Translations under genes and position numbers: made by a program
Part shown: positions 1,756 to 7,224 of the stretch, in pieces
How the letters are laid out: each line of letters begins with the position of its first letter
Position numbering within the stretch: the first letter of the stretch is position 1
The notes under the pieces: generated by a model
What the model was told of the DNA's origin: nothing
Seen by the model: the letters and a program-made list of their open reading frames with translations, nothing else
Database searches by the model: none
Origin: Candidatus Zixiibacteriota bacterium
GTDB lineage: Bacteria > SM23-81
DNA: 8,392 bases
NCBI GenBank assembly: GCA_030628225.1
Contig: DAOVRJ010000102.1
Span: forward strand, 1-8,392
Direction of reading: 5' to 3'

Positions 1756-3225
1756 TCACTCTCTTCCTGGCAACTCCTCCAGCCCGAACTTCTTTCCATC
1801 CGCCAACAGGATCCGCTCCAACTCCCTGACCACGTCCTCCGGCAGGGGCTTCGGCTCCGATTTGGCCAGGATCTTCTCCACCTGCTGGTGAGCTCTCTGG
1901 GCCGCAGTCAGACGGCCGGATTCCTGCCATTCGCCCAGGGTGCCCCGGTCTATGGTCGGGCCGGGGAAGCAGGCCTCTTTGCGGAACCACTGCAGGGTAT
2001 GTGGATCGGTGAGAAAGTGGTCCACCTGGCCGACTTTCTTTAGAATGTTCAGAGCCAGAGGCTCCTCCCGCAGGGCGATGCCATCCACGAGGCGATAGGC
2101 CATGCCGCAGATCTCGTTGTCCATGACCAGCTTCTCCAGGCTCTGGCAGCTCTCGAAATCCAGCATCCCCGGGCCGGAGACCATGTTGATACCGGCCAAA
2201 GCGGCCAGTATGGCTCCCATGCCGGTCTCCAGGCCGGCCTGAGCATCCAGGCTCTTGGCGTCGGAGAGGGCCATGTAGGCGTGGGTGGGCAGGTTCAGGT
2301 GCTTGCCCACCTGGCTGTATGCCATGTCGATCATCATCGTCTCCACGGCGCCCATCGGCGAGGTGCCTTTGCGCATATCGAAGCAGGAGGGCGAGCCACC
2401 GTAAATGATCGGGGCGCCTGATCTGGCTAACTGGTGGATGACGATACCACTGAGGTTCTCGGCTGTATGCTGGACCACGGCTCCGGCCAGTGTCACCGGG
2501 GATGTGGCCCCAGTGAGGGGCATGGAGACCAGCTCGGCGGGGATTCCCGACCGGGCGCAATCGATGAGGCTCTGGCAGGTCAGATCACTCCACTTCAGGG
2601 GCGGGGAGGGACAGCAGTCGAAGATGGCCAGGGGTTTGTCCCGCAAATGCTCTTCCCCACCGCGCACCACCGCCAGCATCTCGAGCATGACCCCAAAGCC
2701 CTCCTTGGCGAATGTGCCGGTAATCACCGGTTTGGTGCAATGTGCCAGGGCGATGTACAGCCGGTAGCGGTCGGCCATCTCCTGGGGAACATCTGCGGAG
2801 AGCAGGGCCGTGCTCTGGGCTCTGAAGTGGGGCAATTCTTCCACCAGCCGGGCCAGATTGACAAGGTCGGCGGTGACGGCGTCGCGGGGCTGGCCCTGCT
2901 GAGGATCGAAGATGCGCAGGGCGACGGAGCCCGGGTCGAAGTGGATGTTGTCGTCCCTCAGGTCGAGGGTTAGCTCTCCATTCCGGCCGTAGACCTGAAT
3001 GTGGGCCGGAGCCGTCTGCAGACACCTGTCCACTAAATCTGAAGGGATGTGCACCCGGTTCTGGGCGGGATCCGCTTTCGCCCCGGCGTCGCCAAGAAGT
3101 TGCAGCGCTTCCTGGTTTTCCACGAACACGCCCACCTCTTTGAGGATATCCATGGCCTCGTCCACGATGCGCTCCAGGGCAGAGGGCTCCAGAAGCTCGA
3201 GTTTCGGTCGTTTTGCGCCGGTCAA
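1756..3225 (-). CDS. MttB-superfamily corrinoid-dependent methyltransferase, non-pyrrolysine
   Basis: The 489-residue product (from TTG) matches the MttB/trimethylamine methyltransferase superfamily in length (about 480-500) and along its whole sequence. The N-terminal part reads LELLEPSALERIVDEAMDIL, then EVGVFVENQEALQLLGDAG. The C-terminal half carries the family stretch SDAKSLDAQAGLE, AALAGINMVSGPGMLDF and LVMDNEICGMAYR (residues about 321-378). Superfamily members move a methyl group from a methylated amine such as trimethylamine, glycine betaine or proline betaine to a Co(I) corrinoid protein. The frame is continuous with a TGA stop and has no internal TAG, so it is of the pyrrolysine-free type, whose characterised members use quaternary amines. 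The exact substrate cannot be read from the sequence. The start is placed at TTG (3225) because AGGAGG lies five bases upstream. ATG codons at 3285 and 3249 give longer frames but lack a comparable ribosome-binding site. It is the last gene of a three-gene corrinoid cluster. Confidence 0.9.
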   Translation of the reverse strand: MTGAKRPKLELLEPSALERIVDEAMDILKEVGVFVENQEALQLLGDAGAKADPAQNRVHIPSDLVDRCLQTAPAHIQVYGRNGELTLDLRDDNIHFDPGSVALRIFDPQQGQPRDAVTADLVNLARLVEELPHFRAQSTALLSADVPQEMADRYRLYIALAHCTKPVITGTFAKEGFGVMLEMLAVVRGGEEHLRDKPLAIFDCCPSPPLKWSDLTCQSLIDCARSGIPAELVSMPLTGATSPVTLAGAVVQHTAENLSGIVIHQLARSGAPIIYGGSPSCFDMRKGTSPMGAVETMMIDMAYSQVGKHLNLPTHAYMALSDAKSLDAQAGLETGMGAILAALAGINMVSGPGMLDFESCQSLEKLVMDNEICGMAYRLVDGIALREEPLALNILKKVGQVDHFLTDPHTLQWFRKEACFPGPTIDRGTLGEWQESGRLTAAQRAHQQVEKILAKSEPKPLPEDVVRELERILLADGKKFGLEELPGRE

Positions 3226-3230
3226 GATAG

Positions 3231-3236
3231 CCTCCT
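3231..3236 (-). promoter_or_regulatory. Ribosome-binding site deciding a TTG start
   Basis: A perfect AGGAGG is followed by CTATC and TTG on the minus strand. It lies inside the longer alternative frame from 3285, and argues that the MttB-like protein begins MTGAKRPKLELL rather than at the upstream ATG. Confidence 0.7.
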
Positions 3237-3297
3237 GTGGGATTGTCATTGAATGTCGATCAGCCCTTCCTGGGCCAGAAAGCATAAAATCATCATC

Positions 3298-3957
3298 TCA
3301 CTTCCTGCGAAATGGACAATTCTCCAACCCGCACCGTTGACAAGGGTTCTTCGGTCTGTCTGCGGAAGCTTCCTTGTTAAAGCTCACGGCGAAGGAGACG
3401 GATTTACGGGGGATCATCATGCAGGATGGGTTCAGGCTCATCCCGATCTGGCCGGCGGGCAGCAGGCGGAAGATGACTCGCTGCTCTTCCAATGACCAGT
3501 CGCCGTATCCCGGACTGAAGCGCGGTGTGGCCACAAGGCCGTGAGCGGCGGCCCAGTGGCAGATCTTGGCGTTGATCGCGTCGGCCGTCGCCTCGGCGGC
3601 CACAGAGCCCACCGCATCCAGCACGTACCCCTCGGGCTCGTGTCCGGTGGCCATCAGCTCCTTGACCCGGGCCTCTAACTCCGCGCCGATGGTGCACAGC
3701 CCCAGGCCGGCCAGCTCTTTGCCCTGTAGTGGGCCCAGCTTTTCCAGGTCAGCGCCCTTCAGGATTCGGTAGACGCCGCGTGGTTTGATCAGCTCCCGGG
3801 AGAGCCTCTCCGCTTCCTGGATAATCCTCTCGGTGTCCTTCCGAAGCTGCGTCTTTTGCTCTCCCGCACCCAAGAGGCGAAGAATCTCGCCACGGGACAC
3901 CTGTATGGGGAAGTAACGGATGAATCGAGGCTCTGTCTGTACCTTATCTCTCTTCAT
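3298..3957 (-). CDS. Stand-alone methionine synthase activation (MetH C-terminal type) protein
   Basis: The 219-residue product resembles the AdoMet-binding activation domain of cobalamin-dependent methionine synthase, here as a separate protein. Key features are RFSPGYGDWSLEEQ (residues 146-159), matching the RxxPGY AdoMet-binding motif, and IGMSLNPSCMMIPRKSVSF (171-189), matching the following conserved strand. It would support reductive methylation of inactive cob(II)alamin using AdoMet and an electron donor. Stand-alone activators are known, for example Thermotoga maritima TM0269, which serves TM0268. The C-terminus carries Cys206, Cys209 and Cys214 in CQRCGLENCPFRR, a possible metal site absent from the fused MetH domain as I know it. 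The ATG at 3957 overlaps the end of the homocysteine methyltransferase gene by 14 bases. A GAGGG lies eight bases upstream, suggesting translational coupling. The gene ends 72 bases before the TTG of the MttB-like gene. Confidence 0.88.
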   Translation of the reverse strand: MKRDKVQTEPRFIRYFPIQVSRGEILRLLGAGEQKTQLRKDTERIIQEAERLSRELIKPRGVYRILKGADLEKLGPLQGKELAGLGLCTIGAELEARVKELMATGHEPEGYVLDAVGSVAAEATADAINAKICHWAAAHGLVATPRFSPGYGDWSLEEQRVIFRLLPAGQIGMSLNPSCMMIPRKSVSFAVSFNKEASADRPKNPCQRCGLENCPFRRK

Positions 3958-4852
3958 GCATAAAACCCTCTTCCATCAGCCGGGTGTGGATCAATTTGAT
4001 GAATTCCGGGGTGGTCCCGCAACAACCTCCCACGGCATCGATCCCGGCTTTGACGATGCTGACTATATCCTCGGCGAAAGCCTCGGGTTTCTGCTGATAG
4101 GTCAGCCGGCCGTCCTTCATCTCCGGCTGCCCGCGGTTGGGCTGGATCAAAACGGGCAGCCCGGTGGCCATCCGCCACAGGGGGGCCAGGTCGACCGCTT
4201 CGCCACTGCCCATCCCACAGTTGGATCCCAACACGTCGGCTCCGGCCTCGGCCAGTTCCCGGGCGCAGTCGGCCACGGAGTTGCCCATGATGGTGAAAAA
4301 GCCCCTGGGTTTGCGCTCGAAAGTGACGGTGGCCACGATGGGCAGGTCGCTGAACGAGCGCACTGCCCGGACGGCCGCCAGGATCTCCTGCAGGTCGTAC
4401 ATGGTCTCCACGATGAACAGATCCACCCCCTCCCCAGCCAGCACCTCCGCCTGCTCCCGGAAGGTCTTATCCATCTCCCCCGGGGTACAGTTGCCCACTG
4501 GGGGCAGGAACTTGCCCGTGGGCCCGATGTCCCCGGCCACGTATCCCTCCGCATGACAGGCTGCTCGCGCCAAACGCACCGCTTGGGCATTGACCTCCAC
4601 CAGTTGCTCCTCCAGTCCGCAGGCTATCAGCTTCATCCGGGTGCCTCCCAGGGTGTTGGTCTGGATCACATCGGCGCCGGCCTGCACATAGGCCCGGTGT
4701 ATCCGGCTGATCTCCTCGCCGCGGGAGATATTCCAACTCTCCACAGATTCCCCGGCGGCCAGGCCGCGGATGATCAGGCTGGTGCCCATGGCCCCGTCGA
4801 AGAGCACCGTGCGCTGTTTGAGAAGGTCTAGGAATGGGAGTTTTGGGCGCAT
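3944..4852 (-). CDS. Homocysteine S-methyltransferase domain protein
   Basis: The 302-residue product is a single zinc-dependent homocysteine methyltransferase barrel, like the N-terminal module of MetH or the S-methylmethionine-dependent MmuM family. It shows DGAMGT (residues 19-24), QTNTLGG (64-70), GDIGPTGKFLPP (107-118), GSNCG with Cys212, and GGCCGTTP (275-282) with Cys277 and Cys278. These three Cys are the zinc ligands that activate the homocysteine thiol. It stops where the folate- and cobalamin-binding modules of MetH would begin, so the methyl donor must come from another protein or small molecule. Context (activation protein and MttB homologue in the same operon) favours a methyl-corrinoid protein as donor; S-methylmethionine is an alternative. 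The start is secure: AGGAGG lies five bases upstream of ATG 4852. Confidence 0.92.
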   Translation of the reverse strand: MRPKLPFLDLLKQRTVLFDGAMGTSLIIRGLAAGESVESWNISRGEEISRIHRAYVQAGADVIQTNTLGGTRMKLIACGLEEQLVEVNAQAVRLARAACHAEGYVAGDIGPTGKFLPPVGNCTPGEMDKTFREQAEVLAGEGVDLFIVETMYDLQEILAAVRAVRSFSDLPIVATVTFERKPRGFFTIMGNSVADCARELAEAGADVLGSNCGMGSGEAVDLAPLWRMATGLPVLIQPNRGQPEMKDGRLTYQQKPEAFAEDIVSIVKAGIDAVGGCCGTTPEFIKLIHTRLMEEGFMHEER

Positions 4853-7112: not shown

Positions 7113-7141
7113 GGCTTTGATATCGCTAGAGATTAAGTTGA

Positions 7142-7195
7142 AAGTTTAGAGAGTTTGGAGAGTTGTGCGAGTTCTGGGAGTTTGGAGAGTTTGGA
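7142..7195. repeat. 9-bp tandem array, left arm of a convergent pair
   Basis: Six consecutive 9-base units run on the plus strand: aagtttaga, gagtttgga, gagttgtgc, gagttctgg, gagtttgga, gagtttgga. Three units are identical and the gagtt core is kept in five of six. It lies 29 bases upstream of the BatA-like start codon, inside the probable DUF58-BatA transcript. Confidence 0.85.
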
Positions 7196-7224
7196 ACGAT
7201 TAATATCACATGACTTTATCTAGC

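Follow-up and report, generated by a model that had tools for sequence, protein, structure and literature searches.

A conserved gene cluster joining an MttB-type methyltransferase to a homocysteine methyltransferase as a candidate corrinoid system for methionine synthesis in candidate-phylum bacteria and Asgard archaea

The textbook methyl source for methionine and S-adenosylmethionine (SAM) is folate, and the question raised by a small operon from a Candidatus Zixiibacteriota bacterium is whether the methyl group may also reach homocysteine from a quaternary amine by way of a corrinoid protein. The window analyzed here (8,392 nucleotides) is the entire contig DAOVRJ010000102.1 (C154) of GCA_030628225.1, a 2.34 Mb metagenome-assembled genome (MAG) with a completeness of 92%. 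On its minus strand it encodes, in order, a stand-alone homocysteine S-methyltransferase domain protein (HMT), a stand-alone MetH-type reactivation protein (ACT), and an MttB-superfamily methyltransferase. We consider it probable that these belong to a dissociated, methionine-forming corrinoid methyl-transfer system of four or five parts, three of which they supply, a reading based on domain content, active-site residues, the linkage conserved among relatives, the folds of ACT and MttB, and genome content.

The grouping of the three genes is not due to chance: several bacterial lineages share it, as do Asgard archaea. Among the four genomes compared from the window's phylum, the sister genome Zixibacteria SM23_81 retains HMT-ACT-MttB, and G001 carries a compact four-gene cluster, MttB-ACT-COR-HMT, which includes a small corrinoid protein (COR). 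Protein scans of genome contigs found the cluster MttB-ACT-COR-HMT in Cloacimonadota as well, and the order COR-HMT-MttB in Heimdall- and Hodarchaeota, in which ACT follows downstream on contigs that extend far enough. The MttB clade profile matched 6 of 124 Cloacimonadota genomes at >700 bits, a seventh being a distant match, and 122 of 227 Asgard genomes at E <1e-90, some more distant groups included. A further 65 neighborhoods were taken and their genes labeled with hidden Markov models built from the module proteins, and a maximum-likelihood tree of 81 MttB proteins places that of the window in a clade of 48 (SH-aLRT 99). The association that the initial annotation had pointed out in the window is conserved among these relatives: an HMT gene lies within 6 kb and on the same strand in 41 of the 48 clade members, usually together with the corrinoid gene that the window lacks and often with ACT, and for at least three of the seven members with no nearby HMT the retrieved sequence ends no more than 1.7 kb away. 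When a set defined by score was limited to genes with 3 kb or more of sequence on both sides, HMT was nearby for 29 of 33 clade MttBs versus 1 of 20 others; these linkage counts are descriptive, as related genomes were treated as independent and loci were chosen by hand, preferably away from contig ends. No pterin-binding methyltransferase was found near any member of the window's MttB clade in the labeled neighborhoods, and the sole cluster of COR, pterin enzyme, and MttB that we saw (L123) belongs to the outgroup. In the MttB tree, one clade is specialized for partnership with HMT. At four Asgard loci (L071, L078, L079, and L103), a second, divergent MttB-family gene adjoins COR-HMT-MttB, an arrangement that would suit a single carrier shared by two donors.

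HMT (positions 3944 to 4852, minus strand; 302 aa) matches PF02574 with 205 bits, and alignment finds the zinc ligands C212, C277, and C278 and the homocysteine glutamate, Glu149, all in place. The closest solved structure is MetH of Thermotoga maritima (1q7m), and Glu149 aligns with its Glu146, which we take to bind homocysteine. All 44 module-type HMTs aligned keep the zinc ligands and this glutamate, and the DxHxxG motif is present in all 60 of the COR proteins aligned. An HMT of this kind could also be a direct betaine:homocysteine methyltransferase of the Bmt or BHMT type that dispenses with corrinoid, with MttB and ACT working in another pathway; in Phaeobacter, Bmt, which is the HMT component of a split MetH, yields methionine from betaine and dimethylsulfoniopropionate in vitro without tetrahydrofolate (THF) or cobalamin (PMC12366255). 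For the window HMT we regard this as most improbable, since its 205 bits fall short of the 338-bit threshold of the betaine-homocysteine family NF005718, its closest relative is MetH, and corrinoid and reactivation genes are its conserved neighbors.

ACT (positions 3298 to 3957, minus strand; 219 aa) is a weak match to PF02965 by sequence (30.4 bits, cut-off 25), and the top fold match of its AlphaFold model (pLDDT 84) is 1j6r, the T. maritima activation protein TM0269 (E 1.1e-12). The protein carries an additional C-terminal CxxCx4CxxR motif (residues 206 to 217), around which model confidence is low. By alignment, a C-terminal CxxCx3-6CxxR tail is present in every module-linked ACT found, and it is missing from the ACT of L043, which lies beside a fused MetH, from that of L045, and from 1j6r as aligned. 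One guess from these sequences is that the cysteines might hold a metal or Fe-S center for electron input.

The MttB-superfamily gene ends at position 1756 of the minus strand and has three candidate starts, ATG 3285, ATG 3249, and TTG 3225, of which ATG 3249 gives a protein of 497 aa (positions 1756 to 3249; PF06253, 321 bits) and TTG 3225 has a good Shine-Dalgarno sequence, CAGGAGG, immediately upstream. The initial annotation had placed three neighboring genes with these domains here, as the profile matches confirm, and its 14-base overlap between HMT and ACT is present. The 72-base gap that it gave between ACT and MttB holds if translation begins at TTG 3225, whereas the upstream ATGs leave 48 or 12 bases. 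It was also right in calling the protein a pyrrolysine-free MttB homolog, as Leu328 aligns with the Pyl334 position of MttB; with no pyrrolysine and a score against TIGR02369 of 433 bits, under the cut-off of 525, identity as a true trimethylamine methyltransferase was ruled out. The residues near this site are unlike those of both MttB and the glycine betaine enzyme MtgB, and the model (pLDDT 75) matches MttB (7xcl) and MtgB (9yce/2qne) about equally. The pyrrolysine-free MttB relatives that have been characterized act on quaternary amines, and only some members of the superfamily have known substrates (PMC12155760). By analogy, the window MttB is predicted to be a quaternary-amine:corrinoid methyltransferase. 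A different donor or acceptor, such as a sulfonium compound or another thiol, would fit the limited set of known substrates in the superfamily (PMC12155760) and the distinct surroundings of the pyrrolysine site, but we hold it to be distinctly unlikely, as the homocysteine and zinc residues of the HMTs do not vary and several genomes with the module have neither MetH nor MetE and would require a methionine synthase unless auxotrophic. A search at the Rfam gathering threshold found no methionine or B12 riboswitch, and its only matches were to PYLIS_3 (pyrrolysine insertion) within the mttB genes of relatives (L018:4207-4306, L021:1749-1848, L023:706-805, L061, L062, and L063). These mttB frames have no internal stop, and the matches probably reflect coding conservation rather than a working element.

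The remaining parts of the system have to be sought elsewhere in the window genome, which was examined family by family with protein profiles. As the initial annotation had foreseen, the corrinoid carrier is encoded outside the window: the genome has two small corrinoid proteins on other contigs, COR24 (C24) and COR256 (C256), and one MttB-family gene only. Neither a full MetH nor a MetE-type (PF01717) protein was found in this genome or in the sister genome; a MetE or MesA-MesD enzyme was rejected as the synthase of the window genome, as none was found and HMT belongs to PF02574. The operon that encodes COR24 also encodes a pterin-binding methyltransferase and another HMT-like protein, and COR256 adjoins a URO-D-family gene. 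Pairwise identity made COR256 the obvious carrier, but this was set aside because the COR tree puts COR24 nearer to the bacterial module carriers, weakly (support 81), and either may be the carrier. The second HMT-like protein (L013:2680-3594) has GGSWGT in place of GGCCGT and is the sole one of 45 aligned HMTs to have lost two of the three zinc ligands, for which reason it was rejected as a methionine synthase; it may use another acceptor or act as a scaffold, and its gene is absent at the matching locus of the sister genome (L048). The window HMT is the sole zinc-complete HMT found and is therefore, judging by these residues, likely to be the methionine-forming subunit of its genome.

Whether such a system can work without folate is best approached through the genomes of relatives. 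In two Cloacimonadota MAGs (G005 and G007) and two Asgard MAGs (G009 and G011), metH profiles match the HMT and COR of the module, and ACT where detectable, with at most weak B12-binding matches outside it. Profile searches of these four MAGs found no full MetH, pterin-binding part, methylenetetrahydrofolate reductase (MTHFR, PF02219), or MetE-type PF01717 protein, the MtrH-type donors of methyl-tetrahydromethanopterin (H4MPT) not having been searched for in the Asgard archaea. The module is the sole methionine-synthase machinery found in the four. Other genomes differ: G010 has the module plus a fused MetH, and in G004 and G006 the clade MttB stands alone and the genome encodes a fused or full MetH. 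In G008, the third Asgard genome checked for MetE and MetH alongside G009 and G011, weak MTHFR-like and MetE-like genes adjoin an apparent SAM synthetase gene (L051). G001 was observed to carry, besides its four-gene module, a pair of MetE-type genes that adjoin an HMT-MTHFR fusion of 602 aa (L046 and L056). A broader proposal is that MttB-COR-HMT-ACT constitutes a self-contained, pterin-independent methionine synthase fed by quaternary amines, outside the MetH, MetE, and MesA-MesD types, and that for many Asgard archaea and certain candidate-phylum bacteria it is the main or only such enzyme; we advance this tentatively, as a possibility that falls somewhat short of an even chance.

The window genome itself tells a more mixed story, and several points weigh against an interpretation in which its three genes form an amine-fed route to methionine. 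It encodes both MTHFR (C130) and the pterin-binding methyltransferase of C24, from which it follows that HMT is probably also fed from methyl-THF, and the principal donor there may be methyl-THF. The carrier lies outside the operon, with COR24 only weakly favored, and the donor substrate and activity of the module are predicted ones. In the sister genome SM23_81, an EamA transporter gene sits between ACT and MttB; two clade members, L020 and L022, have no nearby HMT, though their genomes have MetH; and each gene absence in a MAG is, taken alone, weak. The folate-independent route claimed by the initial annotation accordingly stands as one input, given the genomes with the module alone and the lack of MetH and MetE in the window genome, but not as an exclusive one. 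Half of one refuting condition that it had set also holds, as all parts of a split MetH exist in the window genome, with separate corrinoid and pterin-binding parts on C24 and C256. If the first two genes serve an ordinary split MetH, its own alternative, HMT and ACT would act in a methyl-THF-dependent synthase together with COR24 and the C24 pterin protein, and MttB would be a catabolic neighbor that shares the corrinoid protein and passes its methyl groups to THF, not mainly to homocysteine. Both G000 and G003 have all of the split-MetH parts plus MTHFR, and in both COR24 is in an operon with the pterin-binding protein. However, most other clade members have a cluster devoid of a pterin part, no such part was found genome-wide in G005, G007, G009, or G011, and the conserved partner of the MttB clade is HMT rather than a pterin enzyme, and we consider this explanation unlikely.

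We favor a corrinoid hub that could receive methyl groups from two sources, an arrangement shown by genetics for MtgBCDE in Ruegeria. MttB would move a methyl group from a quaternary, betaine-like amine onto the Co(I) corrinoid of the small carrier, HMT would hand it from the methyl-corrinoid to zinc-bound homocysteine, and ACT would re-reduce corrinoid that has been oxidized to Co(II). For the window genome, this carrier would be COR24 or COR256, from another contig, and could probably be charged from methyl-THF too, whereas in the Cloacimonadota, the Asgard archaea, and G001 the cluster itself includes the proposed carrier gene and lacks a pterin part. We infer the direction of methyl flow, the substrate class, the choice of carrier, and the reductant.

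Two further features of the window were observed. The plus strand at positions 3 to 1187 encodes the C-terminal portion of a PAD_porph/agmatine deiminase-like protein, including a long additional C-terminal region, truncated by the contig end, and positions 7134 to 7200 (plus strand) hold a few tandem copies of a 9-base repeat (about agagagttt) in the gap between BatA-like and DUF58 genes.

The finding extends well beyond the window and offers a compact candidate for betaine-fed methionine synthesis. If true, it would explain how some candidate-phylum bacteria and Asgard archaea with neither MetH nor MetE regenerate methionine, and it would tie the methyl economy of these organisms to betaines and vitamin B12. 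Asgard MttB genes have been assigned to methylotrophy via THF or H4MPT, with no mention of methionine or homocysteine (PMC11291895), and the cluster provides an alternative reading for them. A literature search, with most subscription journals outside its scope, found no published description of an MttB-HMT cluster.

The closest known system is MtgBCDE, which in Ruegeria pomeroyi, Phaeobacter inhibens, and Sinorhizobium meliloti acts both as a glycine betaine demethylase and as a split methionine synthase; mutants of R. pomeroyi show that the corrinoid hub and a bidirectional pterin enzyme take part in both processes (PMC12478193). Like MtgBCDE, the window genome has a pyrrolysine-free MttB-type protein with separate corrinoid, pterin, and HMT proteins and neither MetH nor MetE. 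In MtgBCDE, however, the HMT gene mtgE is usually apart from mtgBCD, and RamA and DUF1638 carry out reactivation, whereas here HMT is the conserved neighbor of MttB, a MetH-type ACT is in the operon, and the cluster of relatives has no pterin enzyme. The hosts differ as well, being marine Pseudomonadota for MtgBCDE and anaerobic candidate phyla and Asgard archaea here. MtgABC of Desulfitobacterium hafniense (MttB-type, corrinoid, and pterin methyltransferase) likewise has an MttB-superfamily protein that charges a small corrinoid protein, and the fold of the window MttB matches MtgB; the methyl acceptor there is THF, as opposed to the homocysteine proposed here, and the one locus with an MtgABC-like layout, L123, is outside the window's clade. 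With MetH, and with the Thermotoga pair of MetH and TM0269, the module shares a homologous HMT and activation domain, the latter also by its fold match to 1j6r, but its HMT stands as a protein of its own with a linked MttB gene, and the C-terminal Cys motif of its ACT has no counterpart in 1j6r. The MesA-MesD core methionine synthases are folate-independent, MetE-type enzymes thought to use methyl-corrinoid proteins (PMC7857596), and methionine synthesis without folate is what we propose here, although with a MetH-type zinc HMT as the catalytic unit, encoded together with a defined corrinoid methylase. What sets the present system apart from MtgBCDE is an HMT-centered cluster that has no pterin part, that includes a MetH-type reactivation protein, and that is spread across candidate phyla and Asgard archaea.

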